Assembly (NCBI RefSeq): GCF_000333035.1
Contig: NZ_BANU01000015.1
Span: 1 to 64,000 of the forward strand
Direction: 5' to 3'
DNA length: 64,000 bases
From: Gordonia sihwensis NBRC 108236
Lineage (GTDB): Bacteria > Actinomycetota > Actinomycetes > Mycobacteriales > Mycobacteriaceae
Below the pieces are notes generated by a model. The model saw only the letters and a program-made list of their open reading frames with translations. It ran no database searches and had not been told where the DNA came from. The first letter of the stretch is position 1, and every line of letters starts with the position of its first letter. The position numbers were made by a program, and so were the translations under genes. Of the stretch, positions 58,820-61,875 are shown piece by piece.

Positions 58820-58926
58820 GGCGCTCGACACCTTACCGGTACGACACACATGATCGACGCCACTGGGACCTCACACTCGGCGTCGCCAGAACGTCTGCTC
58901 TATGAATGGAAAGCGAGGTGAGTGCG

Positions 58927-59436
58927 ATGACGAGACGACACGCGGTGGTGGACACCGAACTGGGCCGGTTGACCATGGTCGCCGACGGCTCGGCACTGAC
59001 AGCCGTCTACTTCCCCCACCACTGGCATCTGCCGCCCGAAACGGAGTACGGGGAGCCGACCGCCGCCGACGACCCGGTGTTCGTCCAGGCGGCCCGGGAA
59101 CTCGACGAGTACGTCGCCGGCGACCGGCGTGAGTTCGACGTCGAGATCGCGACCTCCGGAGACGATTTCTCCGAACGGGTGTGGGCGATGCTGAGAGAGA
59201 TCCCGTACGGGGAGACGACGACGTACGGTGAGCTCGCGCGCAGGCTCGGCAACCCGCGCCTGGCACAGCGCGTCGGTCAGTGCGTGGGCCGCAACCCGAT
59301 CAGCGTGATCATTCCGTGCCACCGCGTGATCGGCGCGGACGGCTCGCTCACCGGGTACGCCGGCGGGCTGGATCGCAAACGTCGGCTGCTGGAGATCGAA
59401 GAACCGCCGGAGGTGTCCGATGCCCGCCTGTTCTGA
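58927..59436 (+). CDS. ogt: Methylated-DNA-cysteine S-methyltransferase, first copy
   Basis: A 169-residue suicide repair protein that moves O6-alkyl groups from guanine to its own Cys131 in IIPCHRVIGADG. SERVWAMLREIPYGETTTYGELA (shown as IPYGETTTYGELA) is the DNA-binding helix-turn-helix, and GYAGGLDRKRRLLEIE ends the fold. ATG with GAGGTGAG; GTG at 58918 is possible. First gene of the alkylation-repair operon. Confidence 0.94.
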   Translation: MTRRHAVVDTELGRLTMVADGSALTAVYFPHHWHLPPETEYGEPTAADDPVFVQAARELDEYVAGDRREFDVEIATSGDDFSERVWAMLREIPYGETTTYGELARRLGNPRLAQRVGQCVGRNPISVIIPCHRVIGADGSLTGYAGGLDRKRRLLEIEEPPEVSDARLF

Positions 59437-59445
59437 CGATCCACG

Positions 59446-59949
59446 ATGAGGGAGCCCTTCGACCGGATCGTCGCGCAGCACGGAGCCGTTGTGCTGCGCG
59501 TGTGCCGCGGTGTGCTCGGTGCCGGCCCGGATGCGGACGACGCGTGGTCGGAGACCTTTCTGGCGGCGCTGCGAGCGTGGCCGGATCTGGAGGAGGGCAC
59601 CGACGTCGAAGCCTGGCTGGTCCGGGTGGCGCAACGGAAGGCGATCGACGTCATCCGGGCGCGTGCGCGGAACGCGGTGCCGATCGACGAGGTGCCCGAA
59701 CGGGAGTCGCAATACGGGCTGCCGGGAACCGGGGACGCGGACGTGTGGGACGCGGTCGCCGACCTCCCGCCCCGGCAGCGTCTGGCGGTCGGCTACCACT
59801 ACCTCGCTCGGCTCAGTCACGTCGAGACGGCCGAGATCATCGGCGGAACGCCCGCGGCGGTCCGGCGCGCCGCCGCCGACGGCATCAGATCCCTGCGCAA
59901 GACCTACGGCACCACCGGCACCTGCTCGGAGAAGGGAGGCCCGCGATGA
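59446..59949 (+). CDS. ECF-like sigma factor inside the alkylation-repair operon
   Basis: A 167-residue sigma-70 family protein: region 2 about 4-72 (DDAWSETFLAALRAW and AWLVRVAQRKAIDVIRAR) and region 4 about 100-155 (LPPRQRLAVGYHYLARLSHVETAEIIGGTPAAVRRAAADG in short blocks). No anti-sigma gene or membrane protein is adjacent. It begins nine bases after ogt without a clear ribosome binding site and overlaps the second methyltransferase as ATGA, so it is made with it. It probably directs transcription of repair genes on alkylation stress. Confidence 0.9.
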   Translation: MREPFDRIVAQHGAVVLRVCRGVLGAGPDADDAWSETFLAALRAWPDLEEGTDVEAWLVRVAQRKAIDVIRARARNAVPIDEVPERESQYGLPGTGDADVWDAVADLPPRQRLAVGYHYLARLSHVETAEIIGGTPAAVRRAAADGIRSLRKTYGTTGTCSEKGGPR

Positions 59950-60530
59950 CGGACCTGTTCCCGGTCGCACCGGACGACCTCGGCCGGCTGCACGCCCGGC
60001 TCACGACAGCCGCTGACGAGAACGCGCTGCTGGACGTGGCGTATCGGACGGTCGAGACCCCGATCGGGCCGCTGCTCCTGGCCGCCACCGAGGCCGGATT
60101 GGTCCGCATCGCGTTCGAGAGCGAGGACTTCGACGCGGTGCTGGACGTTCTGGCCGCGAAGGTGAGTTCCCGGATACTTCGCGCGCCGCGTCGGCTCGAC
60201 GTCGTCGCAGCACAGTTGGACGAGTACTTCCGCGGCCGGCGCCGGCAATTCGACGTGGCGCTGGACTTCCGGCTGTCGTCCGGCTTCCGGCAGACGGTGC
60301 AGCGGTATCTGCCGCACATCGGGTACGGGCACACGCAGTCGTACCGGGAGGTCGCCGAGTCGGTGGGTAACCCGGGGGCCGTGCGCGCGGTCGGCACCGC
60401 ATGCGCCACCAACCCGTTGCCCGTCGTCGTCCCATGCCATCGGGTGCTGCGCGCCGACGGGAGCCTCGGCGGCTATCTGGGGGGCGTCGAAGCGAAGACG
60501 GCACTGCTGACGCTGGAGCGTGTCGCGTGA
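59946..60530 (+). CDS. Second methylated-DNA-cysteine methyltransferase, coupled to the sigma factor
   Basis: A 194-residue MGMT with an N-terminal helical extension (about 1-32, DDLGRLHARLTTAADENALL) ahead of the usual fold. The acceptor is Cys164 in VVPCHRVLRADGS; IGYGHTQSYREVAESVG is the DNA helix and GYLGGVEAKTALLTLE ends it. The ATG overlaps the sigma stop. Like Ada, it might sense alkylation through its own modification and pass this to the sigma factor, perhaps through the extension; this is a hypothesis. Confidence 0.93.
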   Translation: MTDLFPVAPDDLGRLHARLTTAADENALLDVAYRTVETPIGPLLLAATEAGLVRIAFESEDFDAVLDVLAAKVSSRILRAPRRLDVVAAQLDEYFRGRRRQFDVALDFRLSSGFRQTVQRYLPHIGYGHTQSYREVAESVGNPGAVRAVGTACATNPLPVVVPCHRVLRADGSLGGYLGGVEAKTALLTLERVA

Positions 60531-60643
60531 ACGGGAGCCCGAACTAGCTCTTCGGCGACGACGATCCGGGGCGGCCGCCGCCCGAGCTCCCGGACGGCGC
60601 GGCGCTGGTCCGCGGGTGGCTCACGCCGCACCAGCAGCGGTGG
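60527..60643 (+). other. Interrupted 5' end of alkB with an in-frame amber codon
   Basis: GTG 60527 overlaps the methyltransferase stop as GTGA and opens the alkB frame, but codon 7 is TAG (60545-60547). The codons after it (LFGDDDPGRPPPELPDGAAL, then VRGWLTPHQQRWL) resemble the normal AlkB N-terminus, and no ATG, GTG or TTG occurs in frame between TAG and 60644. So the stop looks like a nonsense mutation or a sequencing error, not a real gene boundary. Confidence 0.75.
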
Positions 60644-61204
60644 TTGGTCGCGCAGTACCGCCGGTGGGCGGCCGGACCGGTGCCGCCGCATTCGGCGCGC
60701 ATCGGGGAGCATCGGATGAGCGTGCGGACCGTCTGCCTCGGCTGGCATTGGCGTCCGTACCGGTACTCGCGCGACGCCGTCGACGTCAACGGGCGCCGGG
60801 TGCTCGGCTTCCCGGACTGGATGGTGCGGCTGGGGCGCCAGGCGCTGACGGCGGCCGGCGATCCGAGCGCCGAGCGGTACACGCCCGACACGGCGCTTGT
60901 GAACTACTACGACGCCGGCGCGAGGATGGGGATGCATCAGGACCGGGACGAGGTGTCGCGCGAGCCGGTGGTCTCGCTGTCGATCGGCGATACGGCGCGT
61001 TTCCGGTTCGGCAACACCGAGAACCGGAGTCGACCGTACCGGGACTTCGACCTGGAGTCGGGGGACCTGTTCGTCTTCGGCGGACCGTTGCGGCTGGCGT
61101 ATCACGGCGTGCAGCGCATCCATCCGGGCACCGCGCCGGACGACTGCGGTCTCGCGGCGGGCCGGATCAACATCACCATGCGGGTCACCGGGCTGTCGGA
61201 GTGA
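60644..61204 (+). CDS. alkB: AlkB-family DNA dioxygenase (5' end lost to an amber codon)
   Basis: A Fe(II)/2-oxoglutarate oxygenase that removes 1-methyladenine and 3-methylcytosine from DNA. MHQDRDE is the HxD iron ligand pair, the distal His is in LAYHGVQRIHPG, and GRINITMRVTG supplies the arginines for 2-oxoglutarate. LGWHWRPYRYSRDAVDVNG is family-typical. From TTG 60644 it has 186 residues, missing ~33 codons of the natural frame; initiation could also be at ATG 60716. It may be expressed as a truncated form or be a pseudogene. Confidence 0.75.
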   Translation: MVAQYRRWAAGPVPPHSARIGEHRMSVRTVCLGWHWRPYRYSRDAVDVNGRRVLGFPDWMVRLGRQALTAAGDPSAERYTPDTALVNYYDAGARMGMHQDRDEVSREPVVSLSIGDTARFRFGNTENRSRPYRDFDLESGDLFVFGGPLRLAYHGVQRIHPGTAPDDCGLAAGRINITMRVTGLSE

Positions 61205-61254: not shown

Positions 61255-61875
61255 ATGACTGCAGAACCCGAGGACGTCACCGGCTCCGGCCTGGTGGTCG
61301 GCGACGACGGCCTCGCGCGCCCGGTGTGGGCGAGCACCGATCCGCTCCTTCGCGAGTACTACGACACCGAGTGGGGTGTGCCCGTGCGTGATGAGCAGGG
61401 CCTCTACGAACGACTCAGTCTCGAGGCCTTCCAGTCGGGGCTGTCGTGGGCGACGATTCTGCGCAAACGCCCCGCGTTCCGCCGGGCCTTCGACGGCTTC
61501 GATCCGGAACGCGTGGCCCGCTACGGCGAGGCCGACGTCGCCCGACTGATGAACGACGCCGGGATCGTGCGCAACCGAGCGAAGATCCTCGCCGCGATCA
61601 CCAACGCCGGGGCCACCCTGTCGCTGCGCGAGAAGGGCGGTCTGGCCGAGTTCATCTGGAGCTTCCGGCCCGACGAGACGCCGCGTCCGCGCACGCACGC
61701 GGACGTGCCCACCCAGTCGCCCGAGTCGAAGGCGCTGGCGAAAGCGCTGAGACGCGAAGGCTTCTCCTTCGTCGGACCGACCACGATGTACGCGCTGATG
61801 GAGGCGGTCGGAATCGTCGACACCCATCTGCTGGGCTCTCATCGCCGGGGGACGTCGGGGGTATGGCCGGACTGA
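61255..61875 (+). CDS. tag: DNA-3-methyladenine glycosylase I
   Basis: A 206-residue Tag glycosylase that excises 3-methyladenine. REYYDTEWGVPVRDEQGLYERLSLEAFQSGLSWATIL (shown as YYDTEWGVPV and LEAFQSGLSWATIL) and SKALAKALRREGFSFVGPTTMYALMEAVGIVDTH (shown as GFSFVGPTTMYALM) are near-identical to the family, with the zinc-binding Cys/His partly altered. AGGAAGG precedes the ATG, 50 bp after alkB. Confidence 0.95.
   Translation: MTAEPEDVTGSGLVVGDDGLARPVWASTDPLLREYYDTEWGVPVRDEQGLYERLSLEAFQSGLSWATILRKRPAFRRAFDGFDPERVARYGEADVARLMNDAGIVRNRAKILAAITNAGATLSLREKGGLAEFIWSFRPDETPRPRTHADVPTQSPESKALAKALRREGFSFVGPTTMYALMEAVGIVDTHLLGSHRRGTSGVWPD

Follow-up and report, generated by a model that had tools for sequence, protein, structure and literature searches.

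An ECF sigma factor gene overlapping an O6-methylguanine methyltransferase gene: a probable switch for alkylation repair in actinobacteria

A 64,000-nucleotide (nt) stretch of the Gordonia sihwensis NBRC 108236 genome (contig NZ_BANU01000015.1, positions 1 to 64,000; hereafter the window) carries a gene for an extracytoplasmic function (ECF) sigma factor whose end overlaps the start of a gene for an O6-methylguanine DNA methyltransferase (MGMT). The latter is termed MGMT2, to distinguish it from MGMT1, a gene of the same family at the head of the same unit. The pair probably turns on the repair of alkylated DNA. On balance we favor the reading that it governs a self-regulating alkylation-repair regulon of the type of ECF group 122 (ECF122), in which MGMT2 would stand in the place of an anti-sigma factor and the sigma factor would be released by alkylation. 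The sequences establish the pairing and the overlap of the two genes, an N-terminal extension and an intact active site in MGMT2, a promoter-like element upstream, and the repair-gene content of the unit.

The operon in the window runs on the + strand in the order MGMT1-sigma-MGMT2-alkB-tag, so that alkylation-repair genes surround the sigma gene. The 167-amino-acid sigma factor (59446..59949, + strand, ATG start) matches PF04542, PF08281, and PF04545 (Sigma70_r2, E value 1.6e-14; Sigma70_r4_2, E value 9.8e-7) as well as the TIGR02937 sigma70-ECF model (63.5 bits, cut-off 42.9), and its possession of the sigma2 and sigma4 domains with no other sigma domain places it among the ECF (group 4) factors. 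Its structural model, built from a 43-row alignment (mean predicted local distance difference test score [pLDDT], 86.4; predicted template modeling score, 0.48), consists of three helices at residues 5-75, a loose linker, and four helices at residues 98-155, with no further domain. The 194-amino-acid MGMT2 (59946..60530, + strand; Methyltransf_1N, E value 3.3e-11; DNA_binding_1, E value 2.5e-29) is Ada-C/OGT-like and belongs to the MGMT/OGT proteins by its PCHRV active site with the acceptor cysteine, Cys164, and by its match to the MGMT fold. The MGMT2 start and the sigma stop share the ATGA at 59946..59949 (+ strand). The Ada zinc domain (PF02805) has no match in either protein at E values up to 0.1. 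An earlier note on this DNA, made from the sequence alone, had described both genes, their ATGA overlap, an enclosing alkylation-repair operon, and the lack of a recognizable anti-sigma gene, and these descriptions stand, with one reservation. MGMT1, an AlkB-type frame, and Tag do adjoin the pair, but the alkB-like frame is broken by an in-frame TAG at 60545-60547. A Pfam scan of the 7 neighboring window proteins yielded no anti-sigma family, and none was recognized by eye in the gene clusters common to at least 5 of 88 loci, two of these clusters being without identity and unlinked anti-sigma genes not having been searched for.

The association of the two genes is nearly invariant among relatives. 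A scan with an alignment of 12 sigma factors, covering 84,980 species with one genome apiece, yielded at least 560 confirmed sigma relatives, of which the best 80, all actinobacterial, were kept. An MGMT2-like gene lies directly 3′ of the sigma gene and on the same strand in 79 of these 80 loci, which is the neighborhood by which ECF122 is described; the exception (L085) is a contig end. These 79 loci, 11 regions from relatives in the genus or order, and the window itself make up 91 pairs, four of which duplicate a locus already counted. In 77/91 pairs (73/87 without the four duplicates), the MGMT2 start precedes the sigma stop codon by exactly 1 nt; where several starts were possible, one at this offset was taken if present. 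The earlier note had suggested that fused or overlapping sigma and MGMT genes be sought in other actinobacteria; overlap proved to be the rule, whereas no natural fusion was found, since none of the 91 pairs shares a reading frame. As the first part of what would refute the proposal, the note had named the absence of a conserved neighborhood or N-terminal extension in relatives, and this objection clearly fails because both are conserved. MGMT1, by comparison, lies within 200 nt 5′ of the sigma gene in only 41/87 loci and at a variable distance (39 of 43 gaps between −4 and 64 nt). The pairing extends to more distant sigma factors: in a class-wide sample of 394 spread genomes, with nine candidates scored in each, at least 52 have a sigma match at E values up to 1e-25, and the eight most divergent of these sigma factors (37-44% identity) are all followed by an MGMT2-like gene. 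The same pair and the same upstream element recur in a Cellulomonas composti relative (L059) that is 63% identical. The partial correlation of evolutionary distances is 0.57 for sigma and MGMT2 given MGMT1 and 0.25 for sigma and MGMT1 given MGMT2 (42 loci), to which little weight is given because adjacent genes share ancestry. Sigma relatives are also found on plasmids of Tsukamurella, Rhodococcus, and Arthrobacter (NZ_LR134464.1, NZ_CP110616.1, and NZ_AP024649.1), two of them with a methyltransferase annotated under the match, so the unit may move. Among phages, 16 records match MGMT2, the best being an unannotated fecal record with 61% identity over 68% of the query and the other 15 falling below 60%.

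The partner encoded by the overlapping gene differs from ordinary MGMT proteins in its first residues. The AlphaFold2 model of MGMT2 (60-row alignment; mean pLDDT, 95.2; block means of 74, 88, and 88 across residues 1-30) places a helix at residues 9-25 ahead of the normal MGMT fold, so the extra N-terminal helix proposed earlier is predicted with good confidence. Combining model and conservation, the extension helix comprises residues of about 8-26 (59967..60023, + strand) and includes L15, L19, and A23. The 31 best-matching solved structures align to the model only from residue 28-32 onward, the helix lies outside the aligned range of the Mycobacterium tuberculosis OGT and Escherichia coli Ada-C structures, and when solved chains were searched with a profile, engineered fusions were the only ones to extend into it. 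The extension is present in all 87 sigma-paired MGMT2 proteins, with L15 in 87/87 and L19 and A23 each in 86/87. PCHRV, Asn156, Tyr133, Arg147, and Glu191 are likewise present in 87/87. MGMT2 thus has the appearance of an active-looking enzyme bearing one additional helix.

A shared sequence element precedes the unit in most loci. The 150 nt 5′ of the first gene (MGMT1 if near, otherwise sigma) were searched in 87 of 88 distinct loci, L062 being left out because it lies near a contig end. CTCAC-N16-18-CGTCT/CGACT was found in 72/87 loci, with a spacer of exactly 17 bases in 71, compared with an average of 0.1 and a maximum of 1 in 50 dinucleotide shuffles of the same regions. A wider search (900 nt before sigma, second box CG[AT][CT]T) recovered 102 sites in 84/88 loci; 18 loci have two sites, as a rule one 5′ of MGMT1 and one 5′ of sigma. 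Across these sites, bases outside the search pattern are conserved as well: position −2 is A in 86%, position +6 is T in 80%, and position +28 is C in 99%, the flanks reading gA[CT] before and [AG]TT after the first box and AC after the second. The element thus precedes whichever of MGMT1 and sigma leads the unit, or both genes, and in two loci where MGMT1 is 3 kb from sigma (L058 and L076), MGMT1 has a copy of its own. In the window, CTCAC-N17-CGWCT occurs at 58870-58896 and nowhere else in the 64 kb; the extended form ACCTCAC-N17-CGTCT (58868..58896, + strand) ends 30 nt 5′ of the MGMT1 start, and inspection of the sequence directly 5′ of the window's sigma gene found no element. With its two short boxes a constant distance apart, the element is built like an ECF promoter, in which CTCAC would be the −35 box and CGTC the −10 box, and 58868-58896 is accordingly a putative promoter that the sigma factor itself may recognize, implying autoregulation. 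The eight distant sigma factors mostly have the element too (CTCAC-N17-CG[AT][CT] in 7/8). In a further observation, the second box reads CGTT rather than CGTC in all seven of the loci L135-L141, which have distant sigma factors with an MGMT2-like partner; the box and the sigma factor may have changed together.

MGMT2 genes that lack the sigma factor offer a natural comparison. An MGMT2-clade gene is present in six genomes without a sigma match (L180-L185), one of these genes having an in-frame stop. There is no sigma gene in the 5.5-6.5 kb around these six genes and no element in any of the six regions, and the helix motif, judged by eye, is lost in 4/6. One of the copies that keep the motif (L183) is preceded by a remnant that, also by eye, begins like the sigma gene, as after a recent deletion. 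A separate locus (L142, genome G361) looks like another decaying copy: its sigma match is in two pieces without the middle, the element is absent, and the MGMT2 match is full length.

The genes under the element appear to form a small regulon devoted mainly to alkylation repair. Genes for AlkB, Tag, a PF09859 oxygenase, AlkA, and Ada-zinc proteins follow MGMT2 in varying combinations across loci. A strict pattern, CTCACRTT-N14-CGTCT, was searched in 58 sigma-bearing genomes (42 of the 52 from the class sample, 11 from the genus, and 5 from the order), leaving out the eight with distant sigma factors, one with sigma split over two contigs, and one with a decaying copy. It gave 32 matches in 26/58 genomes, and the reversed control gave 1. 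Nineteen of the 32 lie 5′ of sigma or its MGMT1 within ∼1 kb (in G048 another small frame intervenes). Five, all from one genus (L203-L207), lie directly 3′ of MGMT2, three of them 73 nt 5′ of a frame that by eye resembles a short-chain dehydrogenase. Another (L219) lies 7 nt 5′ of a distant gene for a PF09859-type DNA-repair oxygenase, and the other 7 fall outside these groups. A looser form, AYCTCAC-N17-CGWCT, occurs in genome G009 (L162) 25 nt 5′ of a PF09859 gene and a subsequent gene for a stand-alone Ada-type zinc protein; this copy is ∼0.34 Mb from the sigma gene. A weak element 5′ of an AlkB-like match in L088 was dropped, as the match covers only the end of the protein.

The sigma system occurs both in genomes that have Ada and in genomes that lack it. 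The genome of the window has four MGMT-domain matches and no match to the Ada zinc domain (PF02805) at E values up to 1e-5. Among the 59 genus genomes, 4/12 with the sigma factor lack Ada versus 2/47 without it (Fisher p 0.013, kinship uncontrolled), or 5/12 of the former if one short weak match is discounted (p 0.003).

From these observations we infer recognition of the element by the sigma factor, binding of the sigma factor by MGMT2, alkylation as the trigger, and the sign of the control. In the proposed mechanism, the sigma factor would direct RNA polymerase to CTCAC-N17-CGTCT before its own operon and, in some genomes, also to the element before other alkylation-repair genes. The overlapping start and stop codons would cause MGMT2 to be made in step with the sigma factor, which unmodified MGMT2 would keep inactive through its N-terminal helix. 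Once Cys164 had irreversibly accepted an alkyl group from damaged DNA, MGMT2 would change shape or be degraded, thereby freeing the sigma factor and firing the operon; fresh, unmodified MGMT2 made from the operon would then shut it off. A brake is expected because a self-regulated sigma factor without one would tend to lock on. MGMT2 is the candidate because it is the sole near-universal linked gene, occupies the anti-sigma position, and overlaps the sigma gene, and because its helix is mostly missing where the sigma factor is missing. Release upon alkylation, rather than activation, is suggested by the report that alkylation destabilizes MGMT proteins and moves the active-site loop (PMC7216122). 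In its most specific form, to which we give a little less than even credence, MGMT2 would be a suicide-enzyme anti-sigma factor: each repair event would use up one inhibitor and free one sigma factor, and newly made MGMT2 would reset the switch.

Other arrangements would account for part of the same evidence. MGMT2 may be only a repair enzyme within the regulon, with the sigma factor controlled by transcription alone, by proteolysis, or by an unlinked anti-sigma factor, and with the overlap reflecting operon packing. The universally intact catalytic residues, the presence of other repair genes in the same operons, and the similar overlap of the alkB start with the MGMT2 stop in relatives are all in line with this view. 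It does not explain why the near-universal partner is MGMT2 only and not MGMT1, AlkB, or Tag, nor why the extension is found on MGMT2 but not on MGMT1 and is mostly missing where the sigma factor is missing, and we consider it rather unlikely. The sign of control could also be the reverse, with alkylated MGMT2 binding the sigma factor, alone or with polymerase, and switching it on, much as methylated Ada acts with sigma70 in E. coli. ECF sigma factors usually need no activator, however, anti-sigma genes are the ones that typically lie downstream and overlap, and alkylation is reported to destabilize MGMT proteins (PMC7216122); we regard this reversal as quite unlikely. Finally, the sigma factor might itself be the sensor through Cys20 (window 59503-59505), alkylated directly or by transfer so that sigma activity is altered. 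Cys20 is present in 84/87 sigma factors, and 74/87 have exactly one cysteine. Nevertheless, it is kept, by eye, in only 2/8 of the distant sigma factors, even though their partner is of the same kind and most have the same element, and a merely structural cysteine in sigma2 is also conceivable; we hold a sensory role to be very improbable.

Several results weigh against release of the sigma factor from MGMT2 as we propose it. Covariation of sigma positions 45, 52, 60, and 61 with MGMT2 position 62 (87 pairs; effective number of sequences, 63; z up to 16.7) looked like contact between the proteins but was rejected. The traits change only 2-3 times on a tree from which the covarying columns had been left out, and because this amounts to a single deep clade split, the covariation is no evidence that the two proteins touch. 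The extension columns are in fact under-represented among the top 100 covarying pairs (12 versus 22 expected), the helix motif is kept in 2/6 unpaired MGMT2 proteins (by eye), and the function of the helix might instead lie in DNA binding or stability. As to the element, 0.64 chance matches to the short form are expected in the window, so that the one match there is no surprise and the case rests on the relatives; the exact form is not found within 150 nt in 15/87 loci, and none is found within 900 nt in 4/88. The strict form is absent from 32/58 sigma-bearing genomes in all, including the window's own, where the element reads CTCACACT, and the looser form is at background level in 50/59 genomes of the genus, most of which lack the sigma factor. 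The link to missing Ada is a weak trend in the class sample (22/52 with sigma versus 98/342 without, p 0.053, kinship uncontrolled), and because Ada and sigma occur together in 30/52 sigma-bearing genomes of that sample, the system is not a simple replacement for Ada.

The earlier note knew of no description of such a pair, and in this it was mistaken. A 2022 review (PMC8999054, citing Casas-Pastor et al. 2021) lists ECF122 as a group without an anti-sigma factor, with 6-O-methylguanine DNA methyltransferases as conserved neighbors and an “unknown mechanism”, and gives WP_057211282.1 of Cellulomonas sp. Root930 as its model protein. Set beside this description, the window sigma factor is likely a member: both are ECF factors with a methyltransferase neighbor, no anti-sigma gene was recognized near the window sigma gene, and the model member is also actinobacterial. 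The group's entry in PMC8999054 differs in stating neither a mechanism nor a promoter. Among the literature matches listed, mostly by title and the start of the abstract, only this review names the pair; a Curtobacterium methyltransferase gene is reported to be raised after UV, with no sigma link made in that part of the account (PMC12029717). The present analysis adds the promoter element, the statistics of the overlap, the N-terminal helix, and the comparison with unpaired genes, although Casas-Pastor et al. 2021 may hold a promoter prediction for ECF122.

Two known systems bracket the proposed one. As in the E. coli Ada response, a suicide methyltransferase would be tied to a repair regulon (MGMT, AlkB, AlkA) under positive self-regulation; in contrast to Ada, neither MGMT2 nor the sigma factor has the Ada zinc domain, and the regulator would be a separate sigma factor. 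As in classical ECF sigma/anti-sigma operons such as SigR-RsrA, a putatively self-regulated sigma gene is followed by a closely coupled partner gene, but here that gene encodes, instead of an anti-sigma domain protein, a DNA-repair enzyme extended by one helix. Should MGMT2 control the sigma factor, it would be the first example known to us of a sigma factor guarded by a repair enzyme that inactivates itself, and actinobacteria without Ada would have a means of inducing alkylation repair. If MGMT2 is indeed consumed as an anti-sigma factor, the cell would count alkyl lesions one by one, and the logic of Ada would be split over two proteins, with activation turned into release from inhibition, in a form spread across Actinobacteria. 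The mechanism of ECF122 becomes open to direct experiment through the conserved element, the overlap with its constant offset, the helix, and the naturally sigma-less variants.

The remaining genes of the unit are all on the + strand. MGMT1 (58927..59436), the first gene, encodes an Ogt-type O6-methylguanine methyltransferase with PCHRV (PF01035, E value 1.3e-35). The AlkB-type 2-oxoglutarate-Fe(II) oxygenase frame (60527..61204) matches PF13532 (E value 5.5e-49) in the part 3′ of its TAG, which falls six codons past the start used by relatives. The frame is uninterrupted in the 3/3 relatives compared, in which the alkB start overlaps the MGMT2 stop, and the TAG represents either a recent loss or a sequencing error. 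Tag, a DNA-3-methyladenine glycosylase I (61255..61875; PF03352, E value 3.8e-68), is followed by a gene that we take to encode isocitrate dehydrogenase. The window's genome has two more MGMT-domain genes elsewhere. One (L003, C55) is Ogt-like and has PCHRV; the other (L004, C57) has PWHRV, the mark of alkyltransferase-like proteins, which are unable to take an alkyl group.
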